A stretch of DNA of 64,000 bases from Alitta virens. Lineage: Eukaryota > Annelida > Polychaeta > Phyllodocida > Nereididae. Below the pieces are notes generated by a model that was not told where the DNA came from, ran no database searches, and was given only the letters and a program-made list of their open reading frames with translations. Numbering within the stretch: position 1 is the stretch's first letter; every line of letters starts with the position of its first letter. Location of the stretch: contig OW028581.1 in the NCBI GenBank assembly GCA_932294295.1, positions 10,809,526 through 10,873,525 on the forward strand, given 5' to 3'. Both the position numbers and the translations under genes were made by a program. Shown in pieces: positions 9,576 to 54,436 of this stretch.

Positions 9576-9605
9576 GTCACTGAACTGGTGTAATAAAGGC
9601 CGTAA

Positions 9606-14039: not shown

Positions 14040-14041
14040 AT

Positions 14042-15410: not shown

Positions 15411-15473
15411 GAGTTGTATTTGAGGTTTCAAGATGTCAGAGTTAGAGGAGATTATGTCTGTGGGGGAAAGATC
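15411..15473 (+). repeat. inverted 63-bp leader/gag-start fragment
   Basis: Reverse complement of 13491-13552, spanning the Gag ATG and the end of the leader. It sits between gag unit 2 and LTR-region sequence, so one piece of the array has been flipped. Confidence 0.85.
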
Positions 15474-16094
15474 AGCCTGACAGATCAGAAACGCAACCAG
15501 TGTAGATGATGTCTGAGGTGAGTCTGCGACCACTGTCACTACTAAATGACCAGGAGATGAACTTGCAGTACCATCAGGTGCAGGCCAATGATGTAATGTA
15601 GTAGACAGGTGGGATGCCTCATGACAGTCGTTTCCAATGTCTGGTGGTCCTTCTCAGCATGCAGTACAAAAAAGCTGTGAATATGTAAAAACATATTAAG
15701 TAAACTGTCCAGCCATTAAAAGTGCCATTGCCCAGCTAAGGCAGCATGGAGCACCACAGTTCCAACAACAAAGTTCAGCAATCCTTAGGATGCACATAAT
15801 ATAAACTTACATTCCTCATACATAGATTAGAGCCAAATCTACCTTTAAAACTGCCCTTAACAACTATGCATTACAACATAATATGACTATTTACAGAACA
15901 TATCAAAATATTAGTGTTACTGTCAACCATCATTACACTTGCCAATCATCACAGGACAGGTGAATTCACTGTAATTTTATAATAACCACTTATTACAAAC
16001 CATCTGCCAGCTCTTTGGCATTATTAAGATGAAAGTGCCTTTATACATTAGTCAAATGCACGTAATACAATAATATAATAAAAAAAAAAAAACT
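15474..16094 (-). repeat. LTR-proximal region, tandem unit 2
   Basis: Near copy of 14270-14878: the same order of words up to the A-rich run before ACTAGCCCAGGTGTCC. It lacks the primer-binding site and the LTR inner end. Confidence 0.75.
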
Positions 16095-16662
16095 AGCCCA
16101 GGTGTCCTTATGCCAATTTTGCACAGTAGCATATTGCTCAAACCTAGCCAAATATGCATCAATTTGCTCCTTATTTTCCTCAAAATGAGGTAACTTAGGC
16201 CTAATTGCCCTACGACTACCTGCCAGCTCATCAGCATTAATATCACGAGCCCTCTCAGGATTAATGTGATCTTGCAAATCCTGTTTCATGCACTCAATCT
16301 GCATGGCACTCTCTACCTCAATTCTCTTGTGCTCGGCTTCAGCCCTGATTTCATGTTCTCTATTCTTTTCTTTCATAATTTCTAACTCCCATTCTCTATC
16401 AGTCTTCAATTTGGCCTCCTCTCTTTCAGCCTCCAATTTGGCAGCTTCAGCTTCTCTATCAGCCTACAATTTAGCAGCTTCTCTATCAGCCTTCAATTTG
16501 GCATCCTCCCTATCAGCCTCCAACTTGGCAGCTTCTCTATCAGCCGCCAATTTGGCCTCCTCTCTACGGGTTACCCTCTTATCTCTCAAGAAATCTTGGA
16601 GATCTTTTCCTTTGAACCCTAATCTTTCCCCCACAGACATAATCTCCTCTAACTCTGACATC
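16095..16662 (-). pseudogene. Gypsy gag fragment, tandem unit 3
   Basis: Starts at the normal Gag ATG (16660-16662) and has the charged coiled-coil repeats and capsid-like segment. An in-frame TAG near 16465 interrupts the repeat run, at a codon that is Lys in sister copies. It ends at the same junction after WHKDTWAS as unit 2, so units 2 and 3 derive from one rearranged unit that was duplicated. Confidence 0.8.
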
Positions 16663-17819
16663 TTGAAACCTCAAATACAACTCCTGCATAAACAGCAAGA
16701 AATACAGGTACTACCTCAGTGGTATATGGACTGCCTTCAGAAAACACATAAATTCACCAAATCATGAACCAAGTGAAATGGAAAAAAGGCAATCTTCACC
16801 CAGCAGTATAATACTAACAGTGGACAATTCTTAATCACACTGATCACAATTGTATCATGTGCCTTGTAAGGAGCAGACGAGTGAAGTATTCATTCATGGT
16901 GACAATTTTGTATTTACCCCAAGTTTCAAAGACAGATTGTTTGATGGATTTGATCAGTCTGATGTTGATACTGCCCAGGCAATTGCTTCTCCAATGCTTC
17001 AACGGATTTTGAATTTGTAATGGTCACCTATCAATCAGCAAAGAAAACAGCATTCAGTTAACAGCAAGCAGTACACACAAAAACAGTAGACAATAATACA
17101 CTTGATATTTACTGACTGAATTAATTTTAATATTCATATAAAATAAAAAAGGTTACAATATATAATTTGGCATATAGCTTAAGGTTATGGCTCTAAAAGA
17201 AATGTCAAACAGTAAGTCCAGCTTGCACTTAGTTAGTTGACGATGTTGTTATCTTTTGATAAGATGATGTAGAAACGCAACCAGTGAAGATGATGTCTGC
17301 GACCACTGTCACTACTAAATGACCAGGAGATGAACTTGCAGTACCATCAGGTGCAGAGGCCAATGATGTAATGTAGTAGACAGGTGGGATGCCTCATGAC
17401 AGTCGTTTCCAACGTCTGGTGGTCCTTCTCAGCATGCAGTACAAAACAGCTGTGAATATGTAAAAACATATTAAGTGAACTGTCCAGCCATTAAAAGTGC
17501 CATTGCCCAGCTAAGGCAGCATGGAGCACCACAGTTCCAACAACAAAGTTCAGCAATCCTTAGGATGCACATAATATAAACTTACATTCCTCATACATAG
17601 ATTAGAACCAAATCTACCTTTAAAACTGCCCTTAACAACTGTGCATTACAACATTGTATGACTATTAACAGAACATATCAAAATATTAGTGTTACTGTCA
17701 ACCATCATTACACTTGCCAATCATCACAGGACATGTGAATTCACTGCAATTTTATTGAAAGTGCCTTTATACATTAGTCAAATGCACGTAATACAATAAT
17801 ATAATAAAAAAACAACAAC
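16663..17819 (-). repeat. leader and LTR-proximal region, tandem unit 3
   Basis: Leader copy (16663-17123) joined directly to LTR-internal sequence (from ATTTTAATATTCATATAAAA at about 17124) without the primer-binding site, then the LTR-proximal region as in the other units. Several small deletions relative to 14042-14878. No coding sequence. Confidence 0.7.
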
Positions 17820-17909
17820 TAGCCTAGGTGTCCTTATGCCAATTTTGCACAGCATATTGCTCAAACCAGCCAAATATGCATCAATTTGCTCCTTATTTTC
17901 CTCAAAATG
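17820..17909 (-). pseudogene. Gypsy gag fragment interrupted by a large insertion
   Basis: Starts at the same gag junction as units 2 and 3 and stops at CTCAAAATG. The gag sequence resumes at 28771 with CAAAATGAGG, so 17910-28770 separates two parts of what is most simply one gag region. CAAAATG occurs on both sides. Confidence 0.75.
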
Positions 17910-28098: not shown

Positions 28099-28770
28099 GA
28101 TCAAAATTTGACAGTATGTTTTTGTGTCCTGCTAAAGAAAATTAATTAAGACATAGATATATTTTTTTTATATTCTTTCTTGTATATTGCCATATCTTTT
28201 TTCATCTGTACATACTCATTTTAGCATGTATGAAATAAAAATGTTTTAATTTTATTTTGCACAAATTTTATAAAGTTCATAAAGTGTAAAGAATAAATGT
28301 CCTTCAAAATTTCTTTATGTTATGATATCATTGTTACCATTGAAAACGTTTATTACGCAAAACACAAAACACGCTTGCAGGTGTGGGTTATGTCACACTG
28401 ACGCGCATTAAATATGCTTGTAATTGCACCTAATCCCTTACACATGTGCTAGTTGTTGCATATACACCTATGTGAATAACATGCGAGATATTTCATTGCA
28501 AATAGCTCCACTCGTGGCAATTAATTAAACACGCACCATACAGGAGATCTGCGCATTAGCGCGTCCATCAACTGTTACACTGTGCGTTCTTGTATGAACA
28601 CGGGTGCGTGGTATGACATAAGTTGCATATACACGAATTGCGCGTGCGAGCAATACAACATTCATGCATGCGTGTATATGTCAGAAAGTATATATTACAG
28701 ATAATAATGTGTGTGTATATGCAAGCTATGGCAGTTGTGTACATGCTAAATATGACAAAATATATAGCTC
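28099..28770. other. right subterminal region of the KDZ-like element
   Basis: The first ~270 bp are AT-rich 3' flank of the accessory gene, with AATAAA words. From about 28370 many CATATACAC/GTGTATATG, GCGTGCG and ACACGGGTGCG words occur in both orientations, matching the style of the left end. Ends at the gag junction. Confidence 0.5.
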
Positions 28771-29256
28771 CAAAATGAGGTAACTTAGGCCTAATTGCCC
28801 TACGACTACCTGCCAGCTCATCAGCATTAATATCACGAGCCCTCTCAGGATTAATGCGATCTTTCGAATCCTGTTTCATGCGCTCAATCTGCATGGCACT
28901 CTCTACCTCAATTCTCTTGTGCTCGGCTTCAGCCCTGATTTCATGTTCTCTATTCTTTTCTTTCATAATTTCTAACTCCCATTCTCTATCAGCCTTCAAT
29001 TTGGCTTCCTCTCTTTCAGCCTCCAATTTGGCAGCTTCAGCTTCTCTATCAGCCTTTAATTTGGCAGCTTCAGCTTCTCTATCAGCCTTCAATTTGGCAT
29101 CCTCCCTATCAGCCTCCAACTTGGCAGCTTCTCTATCAGCCGCCAACTTGGCCTCCTCTCTACGGGTTGCTCTCTCATCTCTCAAGAAATCTTGGAGATC
29201 TTTTCCTTTGAACCCTAATCTTTCCCCCACAGACATAATCTCCTCTAACTCTTGAC
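28771..29256 (-). pseudogene. Gypsy gag 5' part, continuation of the interrupted copy
   Basis: Same family as 12540-13530. The coiled-coil repeat run has a further unit number, followed by the capsid-like start, ending at RPKLPHF where the KDZ-like element begins. An extra A immediately after the start codon region (near 29251) shifts the Gag start out of frame; the rest of the fragment is open. Confidence 0.8.
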
Positions 29257-30235
29257 ATCTTGAAACCTCAAATACAACTCCTGCATAAACAGCAAGAAAT
29301 ACAGGTACTACCTCAGTGGTATGTGGACTGCCTTCAGAAAACACATAAATTCACCAAATCATGAACCAAGTGAAATGGAAAAAGGCCAACCTTCACCCAG
29401 CAGTATAATACTAACAGTGGACAATTCTTAATCACACTGATCACAATTGTGTCCTGTGCCTTGTAAGCAACAGACGAGTAAAGTATTCATTCATGGTGAC
29501 AATTTTGTATTTACCCCAAGTTTCAAAGACAGATTGTTTGATGGATTTGATCAGTCTGATGTTGATACTGCCCAGGCGATTGCTTCTCCAATGCTTCAAC
29601 GGATTTTGAATTTGTAATGGTCACCTATCAATCAGCAAAGAAAACAGCATTCAGTTAACAGCAAGCAGTACACACAAAAACAGTAGACAATAATACACTT
29701 GATATTTACTGACTGAATTAATGAGGTATGGTGTTGTGGTGATGGGAACTATCAGATCCCGGACGAGCCCCCAATTGTCAAAGATTCACAATCTCTGTTC
29801 CCCCTCGCACACCACAACACTTTTAACTATTTCCACTTTTAATATTCATATAAAATAAACAAAGGTTACAATATATAGGTTGGCATGTAGCTTAAGGTTA
29901 TGGCTCTAAAAGGAATGTCAAACAGTAAGTCCAGCTTGCACTTATGTAGTTGTAGATCTAGAGTTAGTTGACGATGTTGTTATCTTTTGATGAGATGATG
30001 TAGAAACGCAACCAGTGTAGATGATGTCTGAGGTGAGTCCGCCACCACTGTCACTACTAAATTACCAGGAGATGAACTTGCAGTACCATCAGGTGCAGGC
30101 CAATGATGTAATGTAGTAGACAGGTGGGATGCCTCATGACAGTCGTTTCCAATGTCTGGTTGTCCTTCTCAGCATGCAGTACAAAAAAGCTGTGAATATG
30201 TAAAAACATTAAGTAAACTGTCCAGCCATTAAAAG
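29257..30235 (-). repeat. Gypsy leader, tRNA-Pro primer-binding site and LTR
   Basis: Leader 29257-29755, primer-binding 18-mer complement at 29756-29773, LTR inner end at 29776 (TGTCAAAG). LTR sequence matches 14042 onward for about 455 bp, then stops near 30235 where unrelated sequence begins. It may be the LTR outer edge or a truncation. Confidence 0.75.
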
Positions 30236-30694
30236 TACCATTTTCCTGTTAATTATAGAGTATAAATATGAATTAGTTTTAACCAGCATAGTGCAAATAT
30301 TGACACAAAAATGTTTTTTTACTATTATAATATGACAAATATTGACACAAAACTGCATGGTTTTGTATGGAGAAATCGCTGCCGTACCACCTGTTGACAG
30401 TGGTGTAAATCAGTTGTAACTAGTATAATTGTATGGAACTTGCACTGCTGAGCCATTCCTATGTGAATGGTAGATTGTTCACTATTACTAAGCTTGGCAT
30501 GCTGTTATTTTGCTACAATCATCATTTTCATGCTGAGAATTGGCAATTTCAAATTCTGATTCTTTACATTTTTTAGTGTTATAACTGAATAACTTATTGC
30601 CGATAAAAACCTATTACTAATTTTGGACAGCGGACTGTCTTCCTGGTTACGTTCTCTGTTAGTATCTTATAGTATAGTACACTGGTATGTATAC
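30236..30694. other. non-coding spacer
   Basis: AT-rich sequence between the Gypsy LTR and the last recognised C-type lectin exon. A terminal exon of the lectin gene (the part with the last Cys pair) would be expected here, but none was recognised. Confidence 0.4.
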
Positions 30695-31854: not shown

Positions 31855-34122
31855 TGTTTGTGCGTCAATTCATGGAAAATGGTGGTACCTTTCACTTGTG
31901 ATTGACTTATCTGAGGAATGATCAACTCTTACATGTATCATCTTATCAAATTATCAATAATAATATCATTTAGCATGATATATGCTGACCCATTTAACAA
32001 CAGCGGTACTGCCAATGTAGTCTATGGCCTGCTTGTCATTCATGTAATTTTGTAAAATTAGGGTTTAGTTTAGAAGCTGAGGCAGAGGATTATAGAACAT
32101 TGACAATTAGGCATAATGCTCGGGACACTCACTTTCTCATTTCTTGGCCTCACACTAGCCTTCGGTATCTTTTTTCTAATAGATCAATAAATTTGTAAAA
32201 ATTTGTAAAAATCTGATTAATGAATGGAGCATAACACTCAGGACAAAATAAGCCACACACTGATTGATGAACGGTTATTTGCACAACTGTTATCGGCATC
32301 AATCGGCACAGTTTCAGCAATCTATACTCTCGATTACTTGCAAAATTTCTTCGATAATACATTAAATGTGGACATTTTCCCTATGTTTAGTATGGAGAGT
32401 ATCTTTGGTAAGATGAACAGTGAATAAGCAGAGCAAAGAATAACCACAAAATTCTTTAAGTCTAGAAAACTAGACTAAATATACATTAGAAAATGTTAGT
32501 TAAGAACGCTATAAGCACACACTTTTTAGATCAAATCATATTGGACCACCTTTGAAATGTCACACCAAACAGTGTAAAAAACGCCATTTTCTGTTGTTCA
32601 TTTTGATATCAAATTAAAACCGACTTAATTGATTTGCCTAATATTTTCAGGGAATGCTTTATATTTAATATGAGATAAATATAAATAACAATTGTAGAAT
32701 TAGTAGTATAGCTGTATATAATGTGAGTCTAAATATGATATCAAAGGCTTCATTTTGTTTTGTACTAGGCCCTATTTAGCCATGACATAGCAGCCTTTCT
32801 TTTTCGTATCAAAAATAATCTATAAAAGGAATTGATCGATGCTATCAATAACTGATAAATTATCAACATGTACATGTAAGGTTGAAAATATACAGACGTG
32901 TAATGTTTAAGATGATTGCTCAATAATGATCTGGAATATGGTCCAGTTTAGTGTTGCAAATAGCAACTTGCTACAAGCTAGCAGTGTTTTTAACAGTTTG
33001 TGTTTGTGTGTTTGTCACTGGCTAATAACACTGTGTGTCATCACCTCACAGCCCAGCAACCTTATTATGGACATTCTTTGCAAGTTTATCTAGTTAAACA
33101 AAATGATTGGTTAAACTATGTAGCCGATAGGCTGAGTGTTAGACTTAAGAAATGTTCTCTTTAAAAATACAAGAGAAATGGATTCATATTTTTTTTGAGT
33201 TTAGACAATTTTTCTGAATTGCCTGCTTGTCAGAACAAGAACTGCGTAAACTCACCACATGAAAATCTAGTTATTCTGTAATTTCATTGTTAGACCTTTA
33301 ATACAGTAAGCCAGCCTGACTGCAAGAGAAATTGGTTAATTTACTAAAGATGAGTAAACGAGCACAAAATGTATATAATTAGGTCACTGGGCTGTGAGGT
33401 GAGAACACACAGTCATAAGGTCACCTTGTCATTTCTTTTGCCACTCTCACAAAATGCACAGTTCAGAACACGTGTTATGCTCAGGAGCTCTACTAAATAG
33501 TTATATTTAATAATTTTTTATTGACTTGAATTTAAATGTATATGTTATATATAGTATAAACTGTAGGATTACAGTTTCTGTGGTGAAATTTTATGGTAGA
33601 TGCTGAGTGCAGTGTACAATGTTAGTGTATTATTTCGACAAACTAGTTTGGAGCTATTGTGATGTAATGTATTAGTTTTAAAGGTATTGATTGAGTTATA
33701 AATGAATTATAACAACTAAAGAGTCATCTTTTGAGTGTGGATTCTAAGAATTGCTCATGGAGGCACAGTATGTATTCACTGTTGTGTATGGATTGAAGAT
33801 ATAACGCTGTGCATGCCTTGAACTGATGCTTTATTATTCACGCGATGAGTTTGAATTGTGAGGTCAATCATTTATAGTTTATTGGTGAATCTATGTACAG
33901 AGTCACTCTCACAAAATGCATAGTACAGAACACATGTTATGCTCATGAGCTCTGCAAAATAGATAAAATAAAGCATCGGTTCAAGGCAGGCACAGCTATG
34001 CTGAGGCAAGTAAAAGATCACACCCATGGGGTAAATGTGTAACATGGGTGGACTCCAACTCCTTTCTCACCTCATCAATCAACCCTCAATACTGGCAAGA
34101 ATTTGCTTTAGATGGCTGCACT

Positions 34123-34240
34123 TTCTATATCTATATGTCTATCTATCTATCTGTCTGTCTGTAGATCTGTCTATCCATCTATCTATCTGTTGTCTGTCTA
34201 TCCATCTATCTATCTATCTATCTGTCTGTCTGTCTGTTAT
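34123..34240. repeat. TATC/TGTC microsatellite
   Basis: Repeated CTAT, CTGT and CCAT tetranucleotides; longer than the homologous tract at 5022-5058 in copy 1. Confidence 0.9.
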
Positions 34241-34496
34241 ACCCAACAGAAAAAATAATAATTTACTTTACATAAATTTCCAGCTTCTTGAAATAAGGAA
34301 GCCAAAGTAGCTATCTGTTTAGGGCTTTACAATGAATATATTACCACCATATTAATGACATTCTTTCATTTATGTGTTTGCCGGCTGTCATCTGTAATCC
34401 AACATCTGCCCTACTTCTAATGCCTATGCACTCCATGGTGGCTACCATCAGTTTGACTTTGCCTGCCTGTTTCTCCATTTCCTTAATACCTATAGG

Positions 34497-34572
34497 GATG
34501 GAGGTCTAGCCTAGTAGCAGCATGCTGGGCTTTCAACCACTGGGTCAGGAGTTCAATTTCTGGTGGATCCAG
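34497..34572 (+). repeat. tRNA-like SINE head (copy in duplication 2)
   Basis: A-box-like TAGCCTAGTAG at 34507-34517 and B-box-like GTTCAATTTC at 34551-34560; paralogue of 5226-5300. Immediately downstream the sequence joins to CCAGGACGTAAAGCCC, so the body found in copy 1 is deleted. Confidence 0.4.
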
Positions 34573-36791
34573 GACGTAAAGCCCTTATCTACCCATGATT
34601 CCTAATACCCATTGAAGCCACCTGTACTTTGTCTCCGTGTTTCTACAAAAACACATTGCAGCAGCAGGTTTTTGTTATAAAACTTGTCTTTCATATTCAT
34701 CTGTCCACATAAAAGGATCAATAAACTGATTAAACAAGATGAAGAAATCCGAAATCTTCAGTGGCTTACTTATTTATGCTATTCCAATGTTGGCAATGTC
34801 AAACAAAATACTTTGTTCATGTCTCGGATACATATAAAAGTAAAAGTCTTGACTATTTACAAAAATTCTGGTCATGTCAACTATGAGAAGGATTGTTTTT
34901 GTAGCACAACAGTAATGAGTGTTGTCAATCACAGGTGTAAGCGGCCATGTTTTAATAGAAAAAAAAACAGTCATGCACCTTAGAGGAGACAGCATGGACC
35001 TCAGGGAACGCACTGCTCGCTGATTTTGCCAATCATTTTGGGCAACTGAACATTCCCCTGCCTCGATGAAGTGCTCAACCTTATCATTGATATTTTGATG
35101 CCTCTGTAAATTCAGCTTAATTGGCAAGTGAGTATATCTGACTCAAAGAAATAGAATTTGACATCACAGGTTTCTTCAGAAATTTATTAATCTTGAACTA
35201 AGTGGAACATGATTATCATGTGACAGTCTTTCTAATTTTCTCCCTTTTAAGACAAAGCTTGTATTACCACATCCTCTAGTCATGGCTATTGAATCGCAAA
35301 ATAGCAGTAGTAGATTGACATTCATTCTTTTCAGGAATGCAAAGAAGCCGCGACCACTGAGCAAACTTTACCTGAAGTTGCACCTGTGGTTCGACTGCTT
35401 CCACAGTATTTCTGAAAATTCTCTTTTTTTTTAATAATGTCATGTGCACAACTATGAAAGCGTTAAATCCATAAAATCAAAAAATAACTAATTTAAAAGT
35501 ATTACAACGTCCTTCCAGCCAATCAAACATGGCGATTAATTGCTAAACATCACTAAGGCTTAGCTACAGATTTTCTTGAGACCAAGATTTCTTAGTGTTT
35601 CCATGTGCTCCCACAGGGGTTAGAAACTTAAAACGACTATATAAAATAGACTTTTTCTTTGCAAAAACAAAGCTTTATTTGAACTCACTAGTAACTACTT
35701 TTTTCCAGTGGCATATCTGTAGAGAGACGCCCCTAACAATGAACAAAACACCACTGGCACGAGTTGCGATTCTTTTTAAATGTCTCCTCAAAACATATAA
35801 GCTTTGCAAACCAATAAGCGCCCATGAGATAGTGGCCAACTTAGCAATTGAGGAAGTCATGTGTTGTGTTCAGTGGTTCACGTAAAAACGTATTATCCTG
35901 AGTTATAGTCATATTTCATAAGTAACTATTTTTGTTAAAGTGATGCATTTATCCATATAAATACATAAAAAAGACATAAGATGCAGTGCCAAAATTTATT
36001 TTGTGAGAAACAGCGATAGATAGGATACAACAAATATAAACAGTCAAATAAAACATGTCCCCTTCATTTAAGCAGAGGCTGTTTTTGTCAATAAAATTAC
36101 ACACACAAGTGAATAATAAAATCAGTCATTATAATAGATGCAAACACATTGAAATAAGTTCTTAACGATACATAAGTCTATAAGCAAAAATTGTGCAAAG
36201 CCTACTTTAAGATTAAAATTTCAGAGGTTAATATTTGCTATATTGTACCACTCACCGGTGCAATTTAGCATTAAGGATGCTGTTGCACAAATCACATTAA
36301 TACAATGGTTATATGTTGTACATAAGCCATGCTACACTTGGATTGGTAGCCAACCAGAAATTGGAACAACATCACCAGCGAGTATGAGCAATCCATCCGG
36401 TTTGACTCAATTGTACATTACTTTCATAACTTTGTCTTTTTTCATTCGGGTTTTTAAAAATTCAGAGTGTTTCTGAATCCTAAGGTGGTAATGGTTCACT
36501 ATTTTTCCAATGAATTGTATTTACTGGAAAATAATATATTGACAATAGAAATATTAGGGTTCAGTGGTACAAAATCAATTACATAAATGGTTACATTGTG
36601 ACACGTGAGATATGTATAGTATACCCTCAAATGTACACTTCCCCCTTCGGCCTCATCGTTTTTGGGTGTACATATCTTCAAGTCTCACAGGTAACAATTG
36701 TTATAAATTATATAAAACCAAATAATGCGGCACTGTTCGACTAACTGCACAAGTCTCCATCTGTAATTTTCCTTGCACAGGTAACCATAGT

Positions 36792-38274
36792 TTACTTGTC
36801 TGAATTATTTTTGGACTGAGGGCACAACTTGGCATAAACAGTTGTACAGATTATGGCCAGTTCCTTACTTTCGTTTTTCTGCAATTTATTTGCAATTTGC
36901 ATCAGTGTTTTGAATTCTGGGTACATTGCAGTGAGTAAAACCATAAGGTATGCCTGACAGATTTGGTGCCAGGTCTTGATACTCCCCTTTTTTCTCATTT
37001 TCAGCTTCTTTGCATAAGCCTCAGCTATTTTTTCGGGTCCATATGTGGGACGAGTGTTGCGTTTTACTTCATGCCAGCCAAAGAATTCATAGCTGTTCAT
37101 GATAGCATCCTCGTTCTCATCCCATATTGCATTATCTATAGCTCGTCCAGCAAAAAGGCCTCCTATTCCAGCAACAATGCCTCCTGCAAGAGCCCCAATT
37201 ACTGCTCCCACAGGGCCCGCCAATACACCTGCTGGTGCCCCTGCCCCTACAGCTCCAGCAATCCCAAAACCAGCAGCAGCTCCACCTTCTGCAAGTCGAT
37301 GACGTAATTCAACATATGTTATCTTATGCATCTGCCAATTCACCACATCCCAGATAGCAATAACAGAAAATGCAGCAACACCGGCGAATGCATTGGCACG
37401 AAACACTGAAGTTCCTATTCTGGCAAATGTTGGCGCAACATTCCTGGCAACAGCTCTACCTGCAGCTGCTCCAATGCCTTTTCCCACAGCTTTTTTAACA
37501 CTCTCAGACAACTCAGTGTCTTTTCCCATTTGCAAGGAAGAATTGAGTACCCCACCCGCTCCAAGTACAAAACCTAGCCCAGTACCAAAACTTGGATCTT
37601 TTTCACTTGCCACATCCCGATTTGTTTTGCTATCTTCAGAGATACTAACAATATTGCTTGATCTCCATGCTGCTACTAATCTAAGCACATCGCTCAGCCT
37701 TGCCTTGGAATCTGATTCAGGTGACTCTATTAGCTTCATGACTAATATGCGACTTACACTGACCACATCACTTGTCAAACTCTGTGTAAATCCCCACAGA
37801 TCTTTCATTATTTGTGCCAGTGGTGTTTCATGTTCAACACCAGAAGTTTTTAGTCTGAGCAGCTTTCTAAGGATTTCAACCATTTCATTATATGGAATTA
37901 CTGTTTCTTTTACCTGTTCTGGGCTTATATCTAGCACAGTTGTATGCAGCATGCAAACCTCACCGCTACCTTCATGCTTCATAGCAAGGACATGTTCCTC
38001 TTTACCCACTTCAAAAAACATTACAATGAATTTGCCTCTTTCCGTACCTGCAGTAACCTCTCTAAGAAACTCATCATTTGGGGCCCCATCAGTTTCTCTG
38101 TTGTAAACAAAATCGAGTGAACTGCGTTCAATCAAATCTCGCAATTCTTTTGCCCATTTGATGCATTTTTGTGTTGTTTTCCCTATAGCCTTGATGCTGT
38201 CCTCATTTTTGTTAACTTCAGCCAGGACTTCAACAATTTTACTCAGAGCTTCGCCTGTAATCTGAGTACCCTTC
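36792..38274 (-). CDS. glycine-zipper membrane-associated protein exon, intact
   Basis: One 1483-nt exon, acceptor TTTCAG|GAAGGG at 38274, stop at 36792, giving 493 codons; the first internal Met gives 450 residues. Numbering from that Met: helical N-terminal part with amphipathic segments (~75-165), a Gly-rich hydrophobic stretch SFGTGLGFVLGAGGVL (185-200), a hydrophobic helix FAGVAAFSVIAIWDVV (253-268), a long Ala/Gly zipper (287-335, repeated GxxxG/AxxxG spacing), then a polar tail. Such zippers insert into or span membranes; the function is unknown and I know no matching family. The start must lie upstream, in another exon. The beta-trefoil lectin exons upstream (39.0-43.5 kb, same strand) may be its N-terminal part. 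Paralogue: 6960-8962. Confidence 0.75.
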
Positions 38275-39048
38275 CTGAAAAAAACAATCCCAGTTGCATA
38301 AGTGATAAGAATCTGCTAATTAACAATTATATCCCTAATAGGAGGGAGTTGAACTAACAGTTTTGTTGGTTATCCCAACAAAAATGTTAGTTAATTCCTG
38401 GCTATGAGGGATATAGATAACTATTACTCAACTAGACATATTTACTAATTTGTTTGAGTGTTTGATTCGTTTAACTGCTATTATTAAGCAATTACAGTTC
38501 AGTTTCTACTCAGGAGGGAATTCCATAACATTTTCGTTGGTTATATCCCACTCAGAACATAACTGAACTATCTGGGTGACATATGTACCCTAGCATAGGT
38601 TAGTTGTAAGCTAAATTAATCTTTTTACTCAGACAGGGCATGTAATTGGCAGGTGCCGATGCATTCTTTATTTGTTGTCCAGTGCAGTTAACCAAAAAGT
38701 TGCGTAAAATAGAATGTTATTTTAGCTATCTAGTTTCCATTACCATACAGTGGAATACTCATCTAAACCCACACGCTTACTTAAGGATATTTTGTATTTT
38801 ACTCCACTTAAGACTGTTTTCCAATTGCTCTGAGTTGGCAATAACCAATGAATATGTTAGGTAACCCCCTCCTGAGTGCAGACTGAAGTCACTGAACTGG
38901 TGTAATAAAGGCCGTAAAACAAAACAAACAAACAAATTAGTAAATATGTCTAGTTGAGTAAAAGTTAATCTTAGGCAGAGGGATATAAGCAACAAAAATC
39001 AACACTCGACTATGAGGAATATAACTATTACTTGAATACTTTGATCAC
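38275..39048 (-). other. intron or spacer with an inverted TIR-like element
   Basis: Between the glycine-zipper exon and the last lectin exon. Carries AGGAGGGAGTTGAACTAACA (38340) and its mirrored partner (about 38845-38873), plus an internal third copy near 38511-38555. No exon providing a start codon for the downstream exon was recognised. Confidence 0.5.
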
Positions 39049-42000
39049 CTACACTTGAATAGCTTCCCACTTGTATTCAGGCTTCTCTTTGTCATACTTG
39101 GCCACACACAGTTTAGCACCAGGTTCGGCATTCACAATTTTCAGAACCTGGTTTTCATCATTCAGTCGGCAGATTTTATCCTTCTTAATCCACCATTGCT
39201 GGGTTTCCTTGCCAGGTTTGAAGTTGTTGATTATCATTCTGTGATCTGTCAATAACACTCTTAATTAGCAACAATGTTTTGGTACAGATATCAGATGGAT
39301 GGTCATCATACCATTGAGCTACTTCGTGAATAAGACTGTTTTTGTTTATACTTTGCACTATACTACTAATGTCTCCTCTTGAGTGTAGATAATGACTACA
39401 TTTATGTACTTACCAACTCTCTCCTCTAAAACGAGATTCCGGTTAGCCTTGCACCTTATGACATGATGCTCCAGGTCTTCAATCCACATTTGCTGATTAG
39501 AATTTCTGTACTCCCCAAGGATAACTTCACTGCCAGACAACTCTGTTGCGTCAATCTGATCCAGACACAGGTTATTGAGATGGCAAAAGAGCCTCAATTT
39601 CCTGTCCTCGCTGAAAGAAAATATCCAAAATAATACAGCGACAAAAATAAGCAATCAAACCTTATATGAACTACTTAGAACATAAGCAAACTATGTACAT
39701 ATAATAGGTACATTTGTTTTTGTCTCATATGCAGCTTTCAAAAAAGAGATAACATGTTTTGCTTTTACATCCTGAAAACCAGACACATGCATGCCAAATG
39801 TTGTCAGCCAGATCTAAAAAATATCACATGACCCAAAGAATTATTTACTAAAGTAACAGATGTGAGATGAATTATTAAGCCTTGCCAAACTCTCTTATTC
39901 AGAGATACAGACTTGTGATGCTCTCTTTTTGGACCAGATCTCAATCTATAGAACACCTCTAACTTAAGATATCTTACTGCTTAAGAAGTACTTCTATGAT
40001 CAGGTTTACAAATATATTGTATGATTGGTAAAGTTTCATCATCACTTTCTGTGCATGCCCATATAAGGTAGTTCTGTAGCTGTGTTGCTCTATGACCAGT
40101 TTCAGCCGATTTTAGCTAAATATTGGTAACCAAATGTATGCAAAATGCATAAATTAACATTTTAGACATAATTGAATCGATAACCATGGTAGTTTACCGC
40201 AATAAAACAAGCTACAAAACATGGGTCTTATAAGGGATTGACCATGGCCTACATTTGACTGTACTTAAGTCCAAGGAAAGTTGTGCTATAAATAGCCTGC
40301 TGCAGTGGCCAAATTGTCAGAGGCGCTGGAATGATTGAAAAATGGGGGCTGAAGGACTTCTTTTGTTCTTTTTTTAAATAAACATGTTACATGTCATTAA
40401 TTTAAAGTAATTTTTCCCCTTTCACAAAATTTCTTTTTAAAAAAGACCAATAATCTCAAACAAGTCTGGTACAGGTGTCTTTTTTTAAAGACAGCTTTTC
40501 TTGTTATACCTAGTATTGAACACCAGCTAACCATACTTATATATATATAATTATATCCATACCATAGTCAGACATTACTGACTTTATAGATTAAAATGTT
40601 TTGATATTCCAACTATATCCTACCCCTACCTATTTGCTTTGAAGAAATATTATAGGCCCCAGGAGCCATCCCGAAGAGGCCGCCAGAAGAGGCCGCCAGA
40701 AGGGGCCGCCAGAATAGGATGCCAGAAGGGGCTGCTTGAAGGGGCTGCTTAAAGGACTTTGCTGCTAGAAATTGGCCAAAAATTAAATCTACTGACAGCT
40801 TTTGTAAAATTACCGGACCGGAAGTGTGTTACAGGCACCGCCCTCTGTGTTGTCCCAATTAATCGCGTTTACCGCTTGGGCAGGAACCAGCCAAGTGTTT
40901 ATTTCTGCACACATATGTACATCCAAAAATCCTATCATATCCGAAATAAAATACTGTACAATAAGTAAAGCAGAAATACTAGTACATATGTATGTATTAT
41001 ATATCACTAACCTCTTGACCGTTTATCTGTATATCTGACTACATAATTATGTTGTTCACCCCCAGATAGTAACATTTATAATATAAATAAGTGACTTATA
41101 GGCCTGATAGGCCGGGCATTATGATTACTGTTTTCTTTAACAAAACAAAAAATATCTGTAATGATATGCAAGTCACGTTAATAAAAATGTATTGAATTGA
41201 ATTGAATTGTACGTATGTATGTATGTATCTATTATAAACATTTAAAAAAATTGCTTAGAAATATATCATACTCTATATAAATAATGTAAATAGTGTAAAT
41301 ATTGTTCATTAATGAAGTTGATTTTGTAATTCTTGGCAATTGCAATGACGGCAGTAAATCAAGCTACATGTTTATTTTTCTGGAGCATTTGATGGGCTGA
41401 TTATACCAGCTATGTGACCATTTTTATTGTAATTAATGTAAATTGGAATTTCTCCAAAAGCATAATTACAAGCATGCACAACTAAATCGTGGTTCCCATA
41501 TTCAGTAGATGGATATAATATATTATAAATCAATCACGATTCCAACCTTAGATATATAATTCAAATAACTAGCAACACTAATGTGGCTGTTTCAGTCTGT
41601 GGCCATTTATTTTATGGCCGTTCGGGAAACGTCGCTGTTTAGGACTGGCCGTTAGGGTTTGTGGCTCTGACCAAACACTGCAAAAACACAAAATATTTCT
41701 AATAGAAAACTGATAATATGTTTAAAAAAAAACTCTACTGAACCTGCCAATTAATTTATGCATATATATTTTGAAACGTAGATCTGAATTATATCTATAA
41801 ATTAGCCAAAATGTACACTTTTTTCTAATTAGACACTGTTTTGGAGGCTGCATATTTGAGAATACTAAGAATATCTAGGGACATAAAATACAACCATAAA
41901 AAACCCGACAAAATTCTACACAACTTTGTAGCAGGACATTTTGAAATATGGCTTTCTTAAGGAGAAAATGGATTATAAAATTCAGTTTCATAGGAAAATG

Positions 42001-46100: not shown

Positions 46101-48128
46101 ATTGCCCTAGATATATGCCAGTATCCTCCATTACTTTAGAGAATAAAATGTCTACATTGACTATAGATGAGATGGTTCAAGTAAAATTATTTTTTGACAC
46201 TATTTAAAAAGTTGTGATTTATTGCAGTATTCAATATTGAAATATTTCTCTACTCTGCCAGTTTCACTCGTCTTTAAAGAGGGACCACATGCTCAGCAAA
46301 ATAGCATGTCTAGTAATCTAGACATGGGTGTTTTAAATGCTCATCCCCTTTGTATCTTTTAAGTGTCTTTTTTAGACAAAAGGTTTTTAACTGTCCTTTT
46401 TATAACGAAATAAGATTTGAATTGTTCAATAATGTCAGAAAAACCTACTTCTATTTGATAATGATAAAATTAAAAGACTGATGGAAGATGATACTATAAA
46501 AGACAGCGATTTATCTAACTAAGGCTTTTGAGAAAATTAATGCTAGAGTTCAGCTCCAGAAGCACAACTTAACAAAATGTTTAGCTCTTCTTCAGATTTT
46601 CCATTATTATATAAACAGCATGAAATTAATGTCATATTTAAGTTTGAAAAGTGAAAATACTATAATTTAGATATAACAATGACAATGACGAAGTTTTTAA
46701 TGGGGAAAGTCAGTTACAAAAAGACACAGGAGACCCCTCTAGAACAATTGTATGTTGCTTGTGAGGAGCCACCTGATAATTTCGACCTATTATTTTATTA
46801 GATATGTTATTGACAAAATTTTATTTATGTATAGTAAATAGTATCTTTGGGTATGGAAGTTTGAAAAAGTAAGAATTTTCATGGTTTTTCCCTAATTTTG
46901 AAAATTCTCTTGTATTTACGGCCACAAGACCCTTACTTCACTATTTTAGACATATTATGACAATGTTTTAAGCATGTAGATGTAGTAGTTACAGAGTTCT
47001 GCTCCGGAAACGTAAAAAAAATTTTATTTTCAAACTTTGGTTAAACATAGCCAACATATGTCAAGGTGACTATCAAAATGCAACACTAGGCCATATAGAG
47101 TATTACTGTATGAAATTTCATAAGGGTAAGTGCATTTGTGTTAAAGTTCTGCTCCAGAAACGAAAGTGTTATGTCCGCCTGCCTGACGGACATTGGTGAT
47201 AACAATAGCCCTCTTCGAATTTTGTTTGCTGAGTGTTCAATTTATATTGCTTAGATTTAATTTTCTAACATAACAGTGTATTTAGAATTCTTCTCAGCAT
47301 TGCCATGAAAAACCGTGTTAAGAATACCCTTTTGTACAATAATGTGATATTTTCTATTTTACAGTTATTAACTGCTAATTAATAATAATTGTGTATCAAC
47401 CAGTGAATAGATTCTGTGCAGTTTTAACAGCTAAAACAGTTGTAAACCATTCTCGAAACACAGTAAACCATACATGATATCATTTCAAATCTTAAATAAG
47501 ATCACTTATTGTTACAGAAATGTCAGAAGTATTATATATTTGTAGTAGCTGTAAAACTGCAGTTTTAGCACAAGATGATCTGTATAAATTGGTTTTCTGG
47601 CCTGTTCTGATTTGCGATATAAATATATATATATTTATTCATACTCTTGGTATACTAATGCAATACATGGTTTATACTACAATAATAAAAATGCAAAGAT
47701 TAATTGAGACACATGTCCTCAATATTTGATCTAACTTAATTAGAAGTAAAGCCCCCTATTTATATGGCCCATTGTTTGATTGTTTGTTGTTAGCAGCATT
47801 GGAGAAACAATCAGCTCAGACGTCTAATACCCAATCCACCAAACAATGAAACTGTCAATGACCCTGTAATCTCAGTGCTATTCAAGTACATCATTAGTAA
47901 AAGAAATTACATTGCTCACTTACATATTTATGAATTAATGAATTCCTAACAGACTCAAGCATTGTCAATGTGACTATCAAAAGGCACCACTAGGCCATAT
48001 AGAGTGTTATTGTATGAAATTTCATTAGGGCAAGTGCATTAGTGTGAGACTTCTGCTCTTGAAATGAAAGTGCAATAACCGCCCTCCTGCTTGTTGAACA
48101 AACACTGAACAGTTTTAATGATACCTGT
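46101..48128. other. non-coding region with a recurring short motif
   Basis: AT-rich. The word GTTCTGCTCCAGAAACG recurs with variation near 46545, 46997, 47146 and 48050. The last two copies sit in a longer shared block (47060-47185 and 47968-48095, same orientation) that starts GGTGACTATCAAAA and includes ACTAGGCCATATAGAG. No gene recognised. Confidence 0.5.
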
Positions 48129-48843
48129 TGTAAAATCCTCAGTGTAGTTAGTGACATACTATGTCTCCTTCCAGTATCTCATAGTCTCAACATAATGATA
48201 ATTCAAAACAGCAAGTTGTGTCAAGTTGGTCTGCTCTGTATGTTGGTCAAAACCAAAGATGCCAGAAACATTCCATGTTTATTATTTATATGAATTCACA
48301 AGACAAAGGCCCCTCCTTAATGGAGGGGGTAAAATTCCCAATCACCATTCGATCTCCTCATCTGGGACCAGGCACACCCCTCCCAACTGTGCTCCCTCCC
48401 CTCCCAACTGTGCACCCATGGTCAGTCATCCATTATCCCCCAAACCCCACAATGGACAAACTCACTCATGCATAAATTCTATACCCTCAAGGGCACACAG
48501 TCACACAGGACAGGTGGCAGGCAACCTGACCCACACCCTTCTCCCCTCATTATCTCCACACCCCAGGAGATTGTACAGTCATTAGGCCAGGAAGATCCAA
48601 TCACCCTTGATCCCATTTCGGCCATCAGGATCAAGATCATACAGTGGAGTATGATCAGGCCAGCTGGCCATGGTTCATTGATGGATCCCCTGTCTTCACT
48701 AATGACTAGTACATTGTCCAAAATGGGACCACAATCAGTGATGGCCATCTGCAGCCATCACTTCCACAACTCAGAACATTGCACATTGAATTTACAATCA
48801 TCATTTAGTTAAATTAAAGAGCAAAAGGCCAGTGCCTTTTACA
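48129..48843 (-). repeat. LTR in natural 3' position (715 bp)
   Basis: Bounded by TGTAAAATCC (plus-strand left) and GCCTTTTACA, i.e. TG...CA with a 7-bp terminal inversion TGTAAAA/TTTTACA. On the minus strand, the sense of pol and env, it follows env and carries an AATAAA at 48278-48283, as expected of a 3' LTR. It is repeated in opposite orientation at 53718-54432 with the same length and, judging from three identical overlapping frames, essentially no differences. CTGT lies just outside (48125-48128). Confidence 0.9.
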
Positions 48844-49391
48844 CTGCTCATCATCATTTGAGTTAGATGTATACACATACTAAGATAATTAACCTACTTT
48901 ACACAAAGAGAATGACTCTATCCTACTTTCATTGACCATGAGTCAGCATCTTCATTCTATTACTATAACTATTATTACAAATACATCTCACTTAGCAAAA
49001 ATGATGATTCCATCCTAGCATTTACACCACTTGACACTTTTATATTTATATAGCAAAAAATTACATAATCACATAGACAAAAACCCTAATGTCACTACAC
49101 TTATCCACTGAATCCAGCGTATTCATCTTCATTCAAAAAACTTCTTGATCTGTAGGAATTGGGTGTCGGTGTTTTAGGACTCATACACTTAAATCAACAC
49201 TTCCGGATCATATAATATCATACTACAACAATCACACAATATTTGCATAAATAGTGGCCGATCCTAGCTCCAAGTGCCTCATGGATCATATTGTCTTCAT
49301 CTGATCCCTACCGCACTAGTCTAGTTGCAGATCAAAGCCTAAAGTCAAAAATGTTCCAAATGAAGAGGATTTTGTCCAAGATCTAGGTACC
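48844..49391 (-). other. 3' untranslated region of the retroelement
   Basis: Between the env stop and the left LTR. AT-rich, no frame. The purine-rich word AAATGATGATGAGCAG directly next to the LTR (minus sense) is a weak candidate polypurine tract. Confidence 0.5.
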
Positions 49392-51359
49392 TTAGACCTC
49401 GGCAATATCCTGACATGCACTGCCCACTGGTAGCTTGATGGTGGCATTATCCCCAGCCACCCTGTAACTGGCTGATCTTCTGGACAGCAAGGTTCTTCCC
49501 TGCTTTTTCCTCACGCAACATTGGATCCTGCCCACCAGCCTCTTGATCCAGGCATTTTTCCTCGCAAACCAATAGGCCAGGCCCACAAAGATCAGAATGG
49601 TCACCAAGGTGGACATCACAAATGCAGTCAGGGGGGCATGTTGTCGGAATTGTACCCAGGGCCTCTGGCTCACCTGTATGGCACTCATTAAGACATCCTG
49701 ACTAATATCGTTGACTTGAGCCGTAGATACGCTCTTCAGCTGAGGGAAGGAGTCGACCAACGCTTCGAAGCCCAGATTCCTCGTAAAGTTGAACTGTCCT
49801 TCTACGTGTATCAGGGGCAGCACTATGTGACAGGCCATGTGTAGCTCTGGAATGCAGTGAACTCTCCAACCGGTGCCTGCAATGTTGCAAGGAGCCGGAC
49901 AATGCATTGCGTAAGTGCCTGGCCCCAACTTCTGGGGAGGATAGACTTTTCCTGGACAATGGGCCGAGATAGACTCTCCCCAGGTCATCACCACGATGGT
50001 TCGCAAGGACACTCTCTTCACTGTGGTGACATTGGCCTGTTTCACAATGTCGAATCTGCACCCTTTCACGAGCTCGGATTGATTAAATATCAGACCCCGA
50101 GCACACGTCATGTGTCTGGCGTCAAACAAAGGGCCTGCACGACAGACAAGTGGCTCACCTCCAATACACGCCTCCGGCTCGAATAATAGGCCCGTGGTTG
50201 TGTCCACCCCGTAGCTGCTCCCCACATCTATCTTCACAGTCATGTTAGACCCCCTGATGGGGACTGGGTAACTCTGTATATTATAGAGCAGGTAGCTGGC
50301 CTTGTTGATGGTGGGCACGTTGAATCGAAAGATGAGCCTGTTTCTATCGATGACGATGGGCTCAATGTGCAGGTGCCTGTAATACCATGTCAACTCCGGC
50401 ACTACATCATTTCCGGACTGGGCTATAGCATTTATCGTGTTTCTTAGCACATAGGGGCTGACGATGTCCTCAGTCAAATCTCCCCGCTCCAGCGCTCCAC
50501 GTTGCTGTTGATAGAGCCGCATCTGCTCTCTATATCTCTCAAATAAGTGCTCACACTCCTCTACAGCTCGGTCAATCTCCATGCGTATCTCTATATTGCT
50601 CAACCTCCAATCAACATTTGACAGCTTCTTAGATAATCCTCCAACGTATTTATTCAACTGGCCCACATGATCGTCAACTTGAGACAGAGCCACAGACACA
50701 TTCTTGATATACAACCTGTTTTGATTGACCACCGTCATCATTCGGTCTGACAGGTGTAGTATGTCCTGTGTCCTGGCCTGCAATATCCTGGTGGCTTCCT
50801 CATAGTGCCTCACCTGGGAGTCCGTGGCCACTCCAAAGAGCACATGCAACCCTGTTCCAATAAAATCGAAGGCTCCTCTCCTCTGGCGTCCCATTGGAGT
50901 AGGAGGATCACTTCGACTCCGTCCTGCATAACTACCATCCAGGGGTTGCAATCTCCTCAAGCGCCACTCCCAGGATCTCTGTATATACCCATGCACTTTG
51001 ATGCCTTGCCGACTGTCTCTCACCAGTTGTATCAATGCGGCCAATTGTGCGGGGTAACGAGGAGTCTCCAAGGTTACCAGGACCACCCAGGAAGCCTCCA
51101 AAGTCCTGAGTGAGGCCCCTCCTCGCACCAACACCCCATCTGTCAGTTCCCTAGGGGGGGTGGGTCTCTCCATCATATCTTCCTCCGTCATTGTTTTGGG
51201 TGAGACTTCCCTCAGCATGGGGTCCAACACTCCTGTTCCCTGGGCTCCAACCTGGGCAAAAGTCCCTGACAATAACGATATGAGTAACAGGAGTGCCATG
51301 CCCACCTTAAAGAGTCTCTGGGGCCGAGTCTTCTTGGGGAGAGTCATCATCTTTAGCAT
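49392..51359 (-). CDS. env: errantivirus-like envelope (baculovirus F-type), intact frame
   Basis: 655 codons, uninterrupted. Hydrophobic signal segment ~18-35, a furin-type site RQRR at 158-161 directly followed by GAFDFIGTGLHVLFG, the usual place of the fusion peptide in F-type proteins, then a long helical region (~180-300), several N-glycosylation sequons, Cys-rich ectodomain (~390-520), a transmembrane helix ~575-598 and a basic cytoplasmic tail of ~57 residues. The layout and cleavage/fusion region match the envelope of gypsy-type errantiviruses and baculovirus F proteins. The frame overlaps the end of pol by 53 bp in another frame, as in retroviruses. Translation probably needs a spliced RNA. 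Start chosen as the first ATG in frame. Confidence 0.9.
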   Translation of the reverse strand: MLKMMTLPKKTRPQRLFKVGMALLLLISLLSGTFAQVGAQGTGVLDPMLREVSPKTMTEEDMMERPTPPRELTDGVLVRGGASLRTLEASWVVLVTLETPRYPAQLAALIQLVRDSRQGIKVHGYIQRSWEWRLRRLQPLDGSYAGRSRSDPPTPMGRQRRGAFDFIGTGLHVLFGVATDSQVRHYEEATRILQARTQDILHLSDRMMTVVNQNRLYIKNVSVALSQVDDHVGQLNKYVGGLSKKLSNVDWRLSNIEIRMEIDRAVEECEHLFERYREQMRLYQQQRGALERGDLTEDIVSPYVLRNTINAIAQSGNDVVPELTWYYRHLHIEPIVIDRNRLIFRFNVPTINKASYLLYNIQSYPVPIRGSNMTVKIDVGSSYGVDTTTGLLFEPEACIGGEPLVCRAGPLFDARHMTCARGLIFNQSELVKGCRFDIVKQANVTTVKRVSLRTIVVMTWGESISAHCPGKVYPPQKLGPGTYAMHCPAPCNIAGTGWRVHCIPELHMACHIVLPLIHVEGQFNFTRNLGFEALVDSFPQLKSVSTAQVNDISQDVLMSAIQVSQRPWVQFRQHAPLTAFVMSTLVTILIFVGLAYWFARKNAWIKRLVGRIQCCVRKKQGRTLLSRRSASYRVAGDNATIKLPVGSACQDIAEV

Positions 51360-53717
51360 GCTTGACCTCTCTGTCGCTTTCTGTGGTAGATAAACGACGT
51401 TTTATAAGCTCGAAGTCCTTGTGAGAGTCCTTAGTTGCACGCTGGAGTCCTTCGTCAGAGTTGCTGGGATCACTTCGATCCTTGCGCTTCCTTAGGCTGG
51501 GATCCACGTGCACCACCTTGCGGTGCCCTCCTCCTAGTCCTGCTTGACCTCCTTGTCTCTTCCGAAGAGAGCTGTCAATATGCACCGACTTCTCAGAGTT
51601 TCCCTGTCTGTCGTTGGATCCCTTTCTCTTCCTGTTCTGTCGCCGTGGTGGATCACTGTCACTATCATCCGCGTAGTACTGGCTCTGCTTGGCGTGTCTG
51701 GACAAGTAGGGACGATGCCGCTTACTGTTATGTCCACTTGGGAGAGGCTTGTTATAGTCATCTCCACTCGTATCAGAGGACCTTGGCCGCCGCTTCCTAT
51801 TGGCTGTTGGCTGCAGAGGCTGGTCATCAGACATGCTCCACTCATGCTCGGACAAAGGTTGATCCCCAGAGTGCGAGGGGGCGGAGTTTGCCCCTGACCC
51901 TGGTCCCTCCCTTATCGGCGCAGGGGGCGGATCCTGAGCTTCCTCTGGCAGGGCAGGGGGCAGCTGCCATGGCCTGGGAGCGATAGTCCTATTGTTGATT
52001 TTCCTTTTTGGCCTGGGGCGTATTTGGTCCCACGCCACCTCAGCATCCACCACTCTCACTTTCTCACGGTTCAACACCTTCTGCTTGCCAGTGGGCTGGT
52101 GTGTTATCCACACCACCTTCCCTCGTGTCTGAGTAACTAGCCATTCGGGATCCCACCTGCTTGTCAAAGTCAGGGGCTCCTCCGCTTTGATCACCACTGC
52201 ATCTCCCACCTTTACGTCAGAAGCATTGGCCCTCAAGGCCAGCCTCTCCCTGTTATATTTCCTAGATTCTTCTGTGAGATGTTGAGCCGTTCGAATCGCC
52301 TCATACAGTTCATGAAGTCTACCATAGACCATGTCTCCTGAGGACAGGGCCCTATGCAGGGGCAGTCGCGGTCTGCGTCCATAATGCAGGAAAAATGGGG
52401 AATGTTGAGTCACATCGGACACGGCACAATTGTAGCACAGTACTGCAGGTCCCAACTGCTCCTGCCACAATGATGTGTCATTATTAACCAATTTGCCCAC
52501 AATTTCCTTCAGTGTCCGATTAAACCGCTCAATTCTGCCATTAGACTGCAGGTGATATGGAGTCGTCCTTTTATGTTTCACTCCCACGGCTGATAAATAT
52601 TGTGTGAAAGCCAGGGCATTGAATTCCCTGCCTTGGTCGGTCAATACAGTGTCCACATATCCATGCCTGGGGAAGTATTCCTGATGTTATCTGGCCCACA
52701 CACATTCACTAGTCTTCCTGGGAAGTGGGTAACACTCTGCATAGCCCGAAGCATGGTCAATTATGGTCAATATGTAATTATTCCCCTGATTTGAAGTTAT
52801 CAGGGGGCCAACCAAGTCTAGGGACACATATTGTCCTATGCTTTTGGCAAGAGGCATTTCTCCCATCAGTGCATGCTCCTTCTTCTTCCGATGGACCAGA
52901 CACGTGGCGCACTTCAGGACCCAACTCTTTACATCTGCCCTCATCCCAGGCCAAACATAGCTCTCTTGCACCTTACGCATTGTTTTTACATAAGCCATGT
53001 GACCTACCTCCAGGTGAGCCTGTCCTATCAGCATCTCTCTGTATTTTTCTGGCACCACTAGGCGGTGATACTCAGCCGCATACTGATAGGGTTTCTGTAT
53101 TGAGTATAGGAGCCCATCAATGACCTCATAGGGACTGTCTGGGTCATGTCCCTCTCCCCACTGCTCCATAGTCCTCTGTGCTGCCTGCACTTCTGCAGGC
53201 ACCAGGCCACTTCCTAGCACTGGCATAACTTCATCAGCTGGCAAGCCAGGAGGCAATTCGTCACCCAGTCTCCATTCATCGATGTCAAAGGTGTCCAGCC
53301 TCTCTGGCCTAATCCTGGACAACATGTCGGCCCTCACATTCAATTTTCCTTTCCGGTACTGCACTTTACAACCATATTCAGCAAGCAGCACCGCCCATCT
53401 TTGAATCTTGGTATTTTGCATCTCCTTCGTGAATAATGAAGTTAGGGGCTTATGATCAGTGTAGGCTTCAAACTTAGCACCCCATAGATAGGGCCTGAAC
53501 ACCTTCAGGGCTGTTATGAGCGCAAAGGCTTCACGCTCTATTGCTGCCCATCTCCGCTGGGTGGGTGACAGCAACCTGGATAGATAACTGATGGGCCGTT
53601 CCACCCCAGTTTCAGGATCCCTCTGGCAGAGTATGGCCCCTATGGCTATGTCACTTGCATCAGTGTGTAGCAAGTAGGGATCTTTCGTGCGAGGGTGGGC
53701 CATGACATGCTCGCTAG
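51307..53717 (-). pseudogene. pol: partial pol: RNase H and integrase, truncated 5' and with one stop
   Basis: One frame from the LTR junction (53717) to 51307, interrupted by an in-frame TAA at 52687-52689. It starts inside RNase H (LLHTDASDIAIGAILCQ, AIEREAFAL, AYTDHKPL), then the integrase zinc-binding region (HLEVGH...CATC), catalytic core Asp (SLDLVGPL), second Asp (TDQGREF) and Glu (NGRIERFNR), and a C-terminal DNA-binding part. A long basic, Ser/Arg-rich tail follows, with two VHxDxSLRKR repeats. Gag, protease and RT are absent: the coding sequence runs directly into the inverted LTR. The stop lies between the two catalytic Asp residues. Confidence 0.85.
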
Positions 53718-54432
53718 TGTAAAAGGCACTGGCCTTTTGCTCTTTAATTTAACTAAATGATGATTGTAAATTCAATGTGCAATGTTCTGAGTTGTGGAAG
53801 TGATGGCTGCAGATGGCCATCACTGATTGTGGTCCCATTTTGGACAATGTACTAGTCATTAGTGAAGACAGGGGATCCATCAATGAACCATGGCCAGCTG
53901 GCCTGATCATACTCCACTGTATGATCTTGATCCTGATGGCCGAAATGGGATCAAGGGTGATTGGATCTTCCTGGCCTAATGACTGTACAATCTCCTGGGG
54001 TGTGGAGATAATGAGGGGAGAAGGGTGTGGGTCAGGTTGCCTGCCACCTGTCCTGTGTGACTGTGTGCCCTTGAGGGTATAGAATTTATGCATGAGTGAG
54101 TTTGTCCATTGTGGGGTTTGGGGGATAATGGATGACTGACCATGGGTGCACAGTTGGGAGGGGAGGGAGCACAGTTGGGAGGGGTGTGCCTGGTCCCAGA
54201 TGAGGAGATCGAATGGTGATTGGGAATTTTACCCCCTCCATTAAGGAGGGGCCTTTGTCTTGTGAATTCATATAAATAATAAACATGGAATGTTTCTGGC
54301 ATCTTTGGTTTTGACCAACATACAGAGCAGACCAACTTGACACAACTTGCTGTTTTGAATTATCATTATGTTGAGACTATGAGATACTGGAAGGAGACAT
54401 AGTATGTCACTAACTACACTGAGGATTTTACA
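53718..54432 (+). repeat. LTR in inverted orientation, abutting pol (715 bp)
   Basis: Mirror copy of 48129-48843, reading TGTAAAAGGC to GGATTTTACA on the plus strand, with AATAAA at 54278-54283. A 5' LTR would be a direct repeat and be followed by a primer-binding site; here the LTR is inverted and directly joined to the RNase H coding sequence. CTGT just outside (54433-54436) equals the CTGT outside the left LTR. Confidence 0.9.
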
Positions 54433-54436
54433 CTGT

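Follow-up and report, generated by a model that had tools for sequence, protein, structure and literature searches.

Inverted LTRs around a putative env-bearing Ty3/gypsy unit in Alitta virens: a probable one-off product of aberrant reverse transcription

DIRS-type elements combine inverted LTRs with a tyrosine recombinase and are not known to leave a target duplication. Inverted two-LTR structures are also known as products of autointegration (relevant parts of PMC4751563 and PMC2644782), the inversion circles being attributed to Shoemaker 1980 and Garfinkel 2006 as cited within a passage of PMC4751563. Among DNA transposons, Ginger1 has terminal inverted repeats of about 40-270 bp and targets CCGG or CCGT, and an element has been classed as Ginger2 on the ground that neither ribonuclease H nor RT lay close to it; the word 'envelope' is absent from the portion of this Ginger text examined (PMC2836005). 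It has been speculated, in a section of PMC3601003, that LTRs may derive from such terminal repeats. In the excerpts of PMC9278108 consulted, the asymmetric LTRs of defective HIV-1 proviruses stem from deletions, the inversions are either internal or left unspecified, and a pair of inverted LTRs is not described. Here we describe a retroelement unit bounded by inverted LTRs in the window, that is, the whole stretch of 64,000 nucleotides of Alitta virens DNA that was analysed. A search of the literature, mostly outside subscription journals, gave no such insertion in the titles and abstracts among the matches listed.

Layout and coding content of the unit

The initial annotation had recognized two identical 715-bp TG...CA LTRs facing each other. 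When we aligned 48129-48843 with the reverse complement of 53718-54432, we found 0 mismatches in 715 positions, so that the LTRs are inverted and their limits exact; the self-match is 717 bp long because the 2 bp inward of both LTRs also agree. A perfect inverted repeat of 715 bp makes a chance origin impossible. The LTRs end in TGTAAAA...TTTTACA and contain, in the sense orientation only, a TATA-like box (TATAAA) at 554 and AATAAA at 561, thus showing the TG...CA ends, the AATAAA and the TATA-like box by which LTRs are recognized in the part of PMC3601003 consulted. The 4.87 kb between the arms is filled by an RNase H domain, an integrase, an env-like ORF and a 3′ untranslated stretch, all on the minus strand (Table 1), and therefore holds no gag, protease, RT or leader, in agreement with what had been annotated. 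Direct LTRs with a primer-binding site, which the sibling copies have, are lacking in this copy. No polypurine tract of the classical kind was seen at the unit's U3 or in four ordinary sibling copies read, and the Rfam (gathering threshold) and tRNA scans gave no matches over the window.

Table 1. Positions of the parts of the unit within the window.
Feature	Position	Strand	Evidence or remark
Target-site duplication, left copy CTGT	48125..48128	.	4 bp also in 17/17 direct-repeat copies examined
Left LTR, canonical 3′ LTR (U3 inside, U5 outside)	48129..48843	-	Inner junction shared with siblings
3′ untranslated region, up to U3	48844..49391	-	Sequence
env-like ORF, 655 aa	49392..51359	-	Baculo_F match below cut-off
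Integrase second piece (D2 and E) with basic C-terminal extension	51307..52686	-	D2/E spacing of 35 residues
In-frame stop codon, integrase core	52687..52689	-	Sequence
RNase H domain, integrase zinc domain, start of integrase core	52690..53715	-	Pfam, relatives, siblings
Start of native pol sequence	53715	-	Sibling comparison
Two non-native bases, sense CT	53716..53717	.	TC in 17/17 distinct sibling copies examined
Right LTR, inverted (inner end U3, outer end U5)	53718..54432	+	Identity to left LTR
Target-site duplication, right copy CTGT	54433..54436	.	Matches left copy

The right LTR had been described as joined to the middle of RNase H. In the Pfam scan, however, PF17917 (RNase H) was matched over positions 3-105 of 105, and the cut lies instead at the RT/RNase H boundary, 18 residues ahead of the TDAS motif. 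Protein relatives of the RNase H/integrase piece (159 among the 1900 candidates scored) reach this junction, since 86 of 120 aligned rows (120 listed of 159) begin within its first 12 residues. The same scan matched the integrase zinc domain (PF17921), and the integrase core gave an rve_3 match (E 4.3e-5) that falls short of the curated cut-off; its D2 and E are separated by 35 residues, and one in-frame stop splits the core into two pieces. The three ORF pieces scanned gave no Pfam hit to a tyrosine recombinase.

The env-like ORF (655 aa) matched Baculo_F (E 4e-5), again short of the curated cut-off, and weakly (E 0.007) solved chains called 'fusion protein'. It contains what we take to be a furin-like site and a fusion-peptide-like motif, GAFDFIGTG. 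In a database of 5.8 billion proteins it had one relative, of 26 % identity, among 7993 scored candidates, and no env, pol or LTR relatives were found in the viral_contigs or genome_contigs searches. A fold prediction made from a two-row alignment had a mean pLDDT of 35 and was set aside. RNase H, next an integrase with H2C2 and DDE, and last env is the order of Ty3/gypsy (Metaviridae) elements, with env placed there by matches under threshold. The unit is more safely called an env-bearing Ty3/gypsy (Metaviridae) element than Errantivirus-like, as it was first named; that label, taken from a genus of insects' elements, is probably too narrow. In the part of PMC3601003 on the Zam clade of Errantivirus, LTR ends are of the AGTTA type, and those of the unit are not AGTTA.

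Elsewhere in the window, we observed a large direct duplication between 2942-11431 and 32036-40264 (about 90-97 % identity in several blocks, about 29 kb apart) that includes related ORFs, for example 8199-8702 and 36792-38144. An ORF region that is gag-like by eye only occurs in several copies at 12590-17909 and 28568-30242, with 27-base tandem repeats that encode a charged, repetitive stretch, and an inverted repeat of about 0.93 kb (89 % identity) lies at 650-1572 and 1874-2798, its arms 0.3 kb apart.

Sibling copies and integration as one unit

We searched 671,116,069 bases in 23 contigs for relatives of the LTR and scored 40 of 121 candidates, so that the counts are lower bounds. At 97 % identity or more there are at least 35 LTRs, made up of 16 direct pairs, one single and the inverted pair of the window (the unit at C9:10857654-10863957), while at 81-84 % there are at least 5 (one direct pair and three singles). 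The arms of 15 of the 16 close direct pairs lie about 8.4 kb apart and those of the remaining pair 9.4 kb. That these 16 close copies carry direct LTRs upholds the initial view that the unit is not a normal provirus. The family looks young from its LTRs, which differed at 0, 0, 0 and 1 positions within the four pairs compared. Between the LTRs of two sibling proviruses (L003-L006) and those of the unit, 5 of 715 positions differ; the identity of the unit's own two LTRs, set against these 5 differences, fits a single cDNA event.

The siblings also indicate which of the two arms is misplaced. Four sibling 3′ LTRs (L003, L005, L007 and L009) are preceded by GATGATGAGCAG, as is the left LTR of the window, whose inner junction, GATGATGAGCAG running directly into TGTAAAAGG, matches all four of those examined. 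Four sibling 5′ LTRs (L004, L006, L008 and L010, all those read) are followed by TTGGTGACCCCGACGTGATC, a putative primer-binding site. Since its junction is as in ordinary proviruses, the left LTR is canonical, sitting correctly 3′ of env as had been proposed, and the right LTR is the flipped one.

The first 21 bases of the U3 ends (53718-53742 and 48819-48843) hold a 7-bp stem with a 4-base loop (AAAAGGC-ACTG-GCCTTTT). One pair of this stem reads G-C in 79, T-A in 14, C-G in 1 and T-G in 3 of 100 listed copies, with no pair in 3, and these counts may reflect a palindrome kept by paired changes between subfamilies, although relatedness is uncontrolled in them and the 3-mismatch limit of the pattern biases the sample. 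At one place (G000:C5:19691828-19691852) the U3-end pattern ends in TTTTACAA, not TTTTGCTC, as if the stem ran into a longer palindrome.

The unit is flanked by CTGT, directly before 48129 and directly after 54432, and two places drawn at random from the window share the same 4 bases at a frequency of 0.005. A 4-bp duplication was found in all 17 direct pairs (4 read by eye, 13 in a second flank set), and in the 13 pairs of the second set it could not be extended to 5 bp. The four single LTRs are divided, with a duplication in two solo LTRs (L051 and L053) and none in the other two, which have element-like flanks and look like the ends of elements whose mate is unlisted. As a 4-bp duplication is the rule in this family, the CTGT around the unit is the duplication to be expected of the family's integrase, and thus the rearranged DNA was most likely inserted whole by integrase, through two U5 ends.

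The right joint and the origin of the unit

In the window, AGCGAG is preceded by CT at the right joint; the 17/17 distinct siblings examined (14 plus three more) have TC there, ahead of either AGCGAG or AGTGAG. When a 300-base RNase H query was compared with the genome (40 of 135 candidates scored), the window matched from base 1, while ten other copies of at least 93 % identity matched from base 3; among 29 distant rows (75-82 %) the match started at base 3 in 19, at base 2 in 9 and at base 6 in one. The CT of the joint is the complement of the AG that lies outside U3 in the family, where the 3′ LTR junction reads AG directly before TGT. In retroviruses and Ty3 the cDNA ends have 2 extra bases. 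The two bases of the unit thus probably mark an unprocessed U3 cDNA end, and the simplest reading of the joint would be that such an end was fused to a broken RNase H end ahead of integration, with no microhomology involved. Integrated 5′ LTRs, however, have host DNA outside U3, which by chance is AG in 2 of 17 direct pairs (L025 and L029), so the two bases alone are no proof of a cDNA end, and the CT could instead be a 2-nt filler, with a chance of about 1 in 16 of matching.

Autointegration, one of the origins first suggested for the unit, would have the processed U3 end attack the element's own RNase H region to give an inversion circle, with later insertion of this circle or of its counterpart made from two cDNAs. 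Inverted structures of this origin are on record, the joint lies within 2 bp of the LTR end, and we favoured the clean form of this explanation at first. However, clean strand transfer places CA directly on the native target, whereas here CA is followed by the non-native CT, and an inversion circle leaves no two free U5 ends. The non-native CT argues against clean autointegration and for a joining of cDNA ends ahead of integration; we dropped the clean form once the siblings had shown that CT is non-native, and we consider autointegration as a whole unlikely.

Could the unit have been rearranged in the chromosome after a normal insertion, through a deletion and an inversion or through recombination with an opposed copy? 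LTR recombination does occur in this genome, as the two solo LTRs with duplications attest, and AG stands by chance before the 5′ LTR in 2 of 17 direct pairs. Such a history nevertheless requires that one LTR be flipped precisely while keeping both its ends, that the joint fall exactly 2 bp beyond U3 and that the outer duplication match, and we consider it very unlikely. Crossing over between chromosomal LTRs, which we also considered, was ruled out by the RNase H adjoining U3, since an LTR-LTR exchange is unable to place one beside the other. The recombination between opposed copies that had been put forward leaves unexplained both the nonhomologous joint 2 bp outside U3 and the duplication around the product. 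An assembly artefact at one LTR is scarcely credible: the LTRs are near-identical 715-bp repeats, present at least 35 times at 97 % or more, but a false joint would have to make a duplication of the family's length and a 2-base signature like that of a cDNA end, in an assembly of 23 contigs for 671 Mb.

With its inverted identical LTRs, canonical left side, non-native joint bases, flanking duplication and a junction found once in the genome, the unit most likely stems from a single aberrant reverse transcription of an env-bearing Ty3/gypsy element, whose cDNA ends were joined before integration. The template switching during reverse transcription that had been proposed survives in this general form, as aberrant reverse transcription. 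The sequence of steps, and the way in which the ends came together, we infer as follows. A linear cDNA (or its plus-strand strong-stop DNA) would contribute its blunt, unprocessed U3 end, and the partner would be the end of a cDNA that was broken, or left unfinished, at the RT/RNase H boundary. The joined product would have U5 at both ends, and integrase, presumably that of an ordinary copy, would process both and insert the unit with a 4-bp duplication. By one route two cDNAs would fuse head to head, and recombination between the two direct LTRs of the complete arm would later leave a single LTR; we saw no head-to-head dimer among the U3 places listed (100 of 123). By the other, a snap-back molecule would form when the nascent minus strand became linked to its own plus-strand strong-stop DNA, at the 5′ end of the latter. 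The core set out above is common to both.

Recurrence and comparison with known systems

The initial annotation had also raised the possibility of a mobile form with recurring copies, in which the LTRs would serve as long terminal inverted repeats; Ginger DNA transposons would be the parallel. The TGTNR-like ends (TGTAA), the 4-bp duplication and the gypsy-type integrase do resemble Ginger (as described in part of PMC2836005), and the whole unit was inserted between its two CTGT. However, the 31-base junction occurs once in 671 Mb at up to 3 mismatches, and the unit's own integrase frame contains a stop codon. The 25-base U3-end pattern, at the same limit, was found at 123 genomic places, 100 of them listed; among these 100, the neighbouring U3 pairs less than 20 kb apart are direct in 32 cases and inverted in 1, that of the window (32 of 33 direct), and 34 U3 places are unpaired; further inverted copies may exist at the other 23 places, with a lost U3 end or in much diverged subfamilies. 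The genome search, as far as it reached, found only this rearranged copy, the outcome that the initial annotation had named as speaking against a mobile form, and we give the mobile form very little credence. As no other copies were found, the unit stays an accident for now: the aberrant provirus is real, and it seems to have arisen once by mishap and not to represent a new sort of mobile element.

What the unit offers is a base-level chromosomal record of a failed reverse transcription that was still inserted, apparently via two U5 ends, which suggests that correct LTR polarity was not needed for this insertion. It also bears on the question of whether LTR elements may turn into inverted-repeat DNA transposons of the integrase type, and vice versa. 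If two U5 ends suffice, an env-bearing LTR element could become a unit with long terminal inverted repeats in one step, re-mobilisable in trans by integrase, and the locus would then be a snapshot of the origin of Ginger-like transposons or of the reverse, a speculative idea that we think has only a slim prospect of being right.

Compared with the ordinary proviruses of its family, the unit has the same LTR sequence, 3′ junction, RNase H and 4-bp target duplication. They differ from it in their direct LTRs, putative primer-binding site and native pol upstream of RNase H, whereas the unit has inverted LTRs 4.9 kb apart, no RT and no leader. With DIRS-type elements it shares inverted terminal repeats on a retroelement, but it has a DDE integrase and a 4-bp duplication. 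Ginger elements resemble it in their TGTNR ends, 4-bp duplications, gypsy-type integrase and terminal inverted repeats (PMC2836005, in the portion consulted); unlike them, the unit has 715-bp LTR repeats, RNase H and env, belongs to a family with varied targets and was found once in this form. The inversion circles made by retroviral and Ty1 autointegration likewise have inverted LTRs and a U3 near internal sequence (PMC4751563, relevant part), and they are the nearest described product, yet they predict a different joint: they are circular and their joint is expected at the processed CA, while the unit has two extra bases and is a linear insertion with a duplication. Finally, defective HIV-1 proviruses are, like the unit, aberrant reverse transcripts that nevertheless became integrated (excerpts of PMC9278108). 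The unit is best regarded as a variant within an already known sort of defective provirus.
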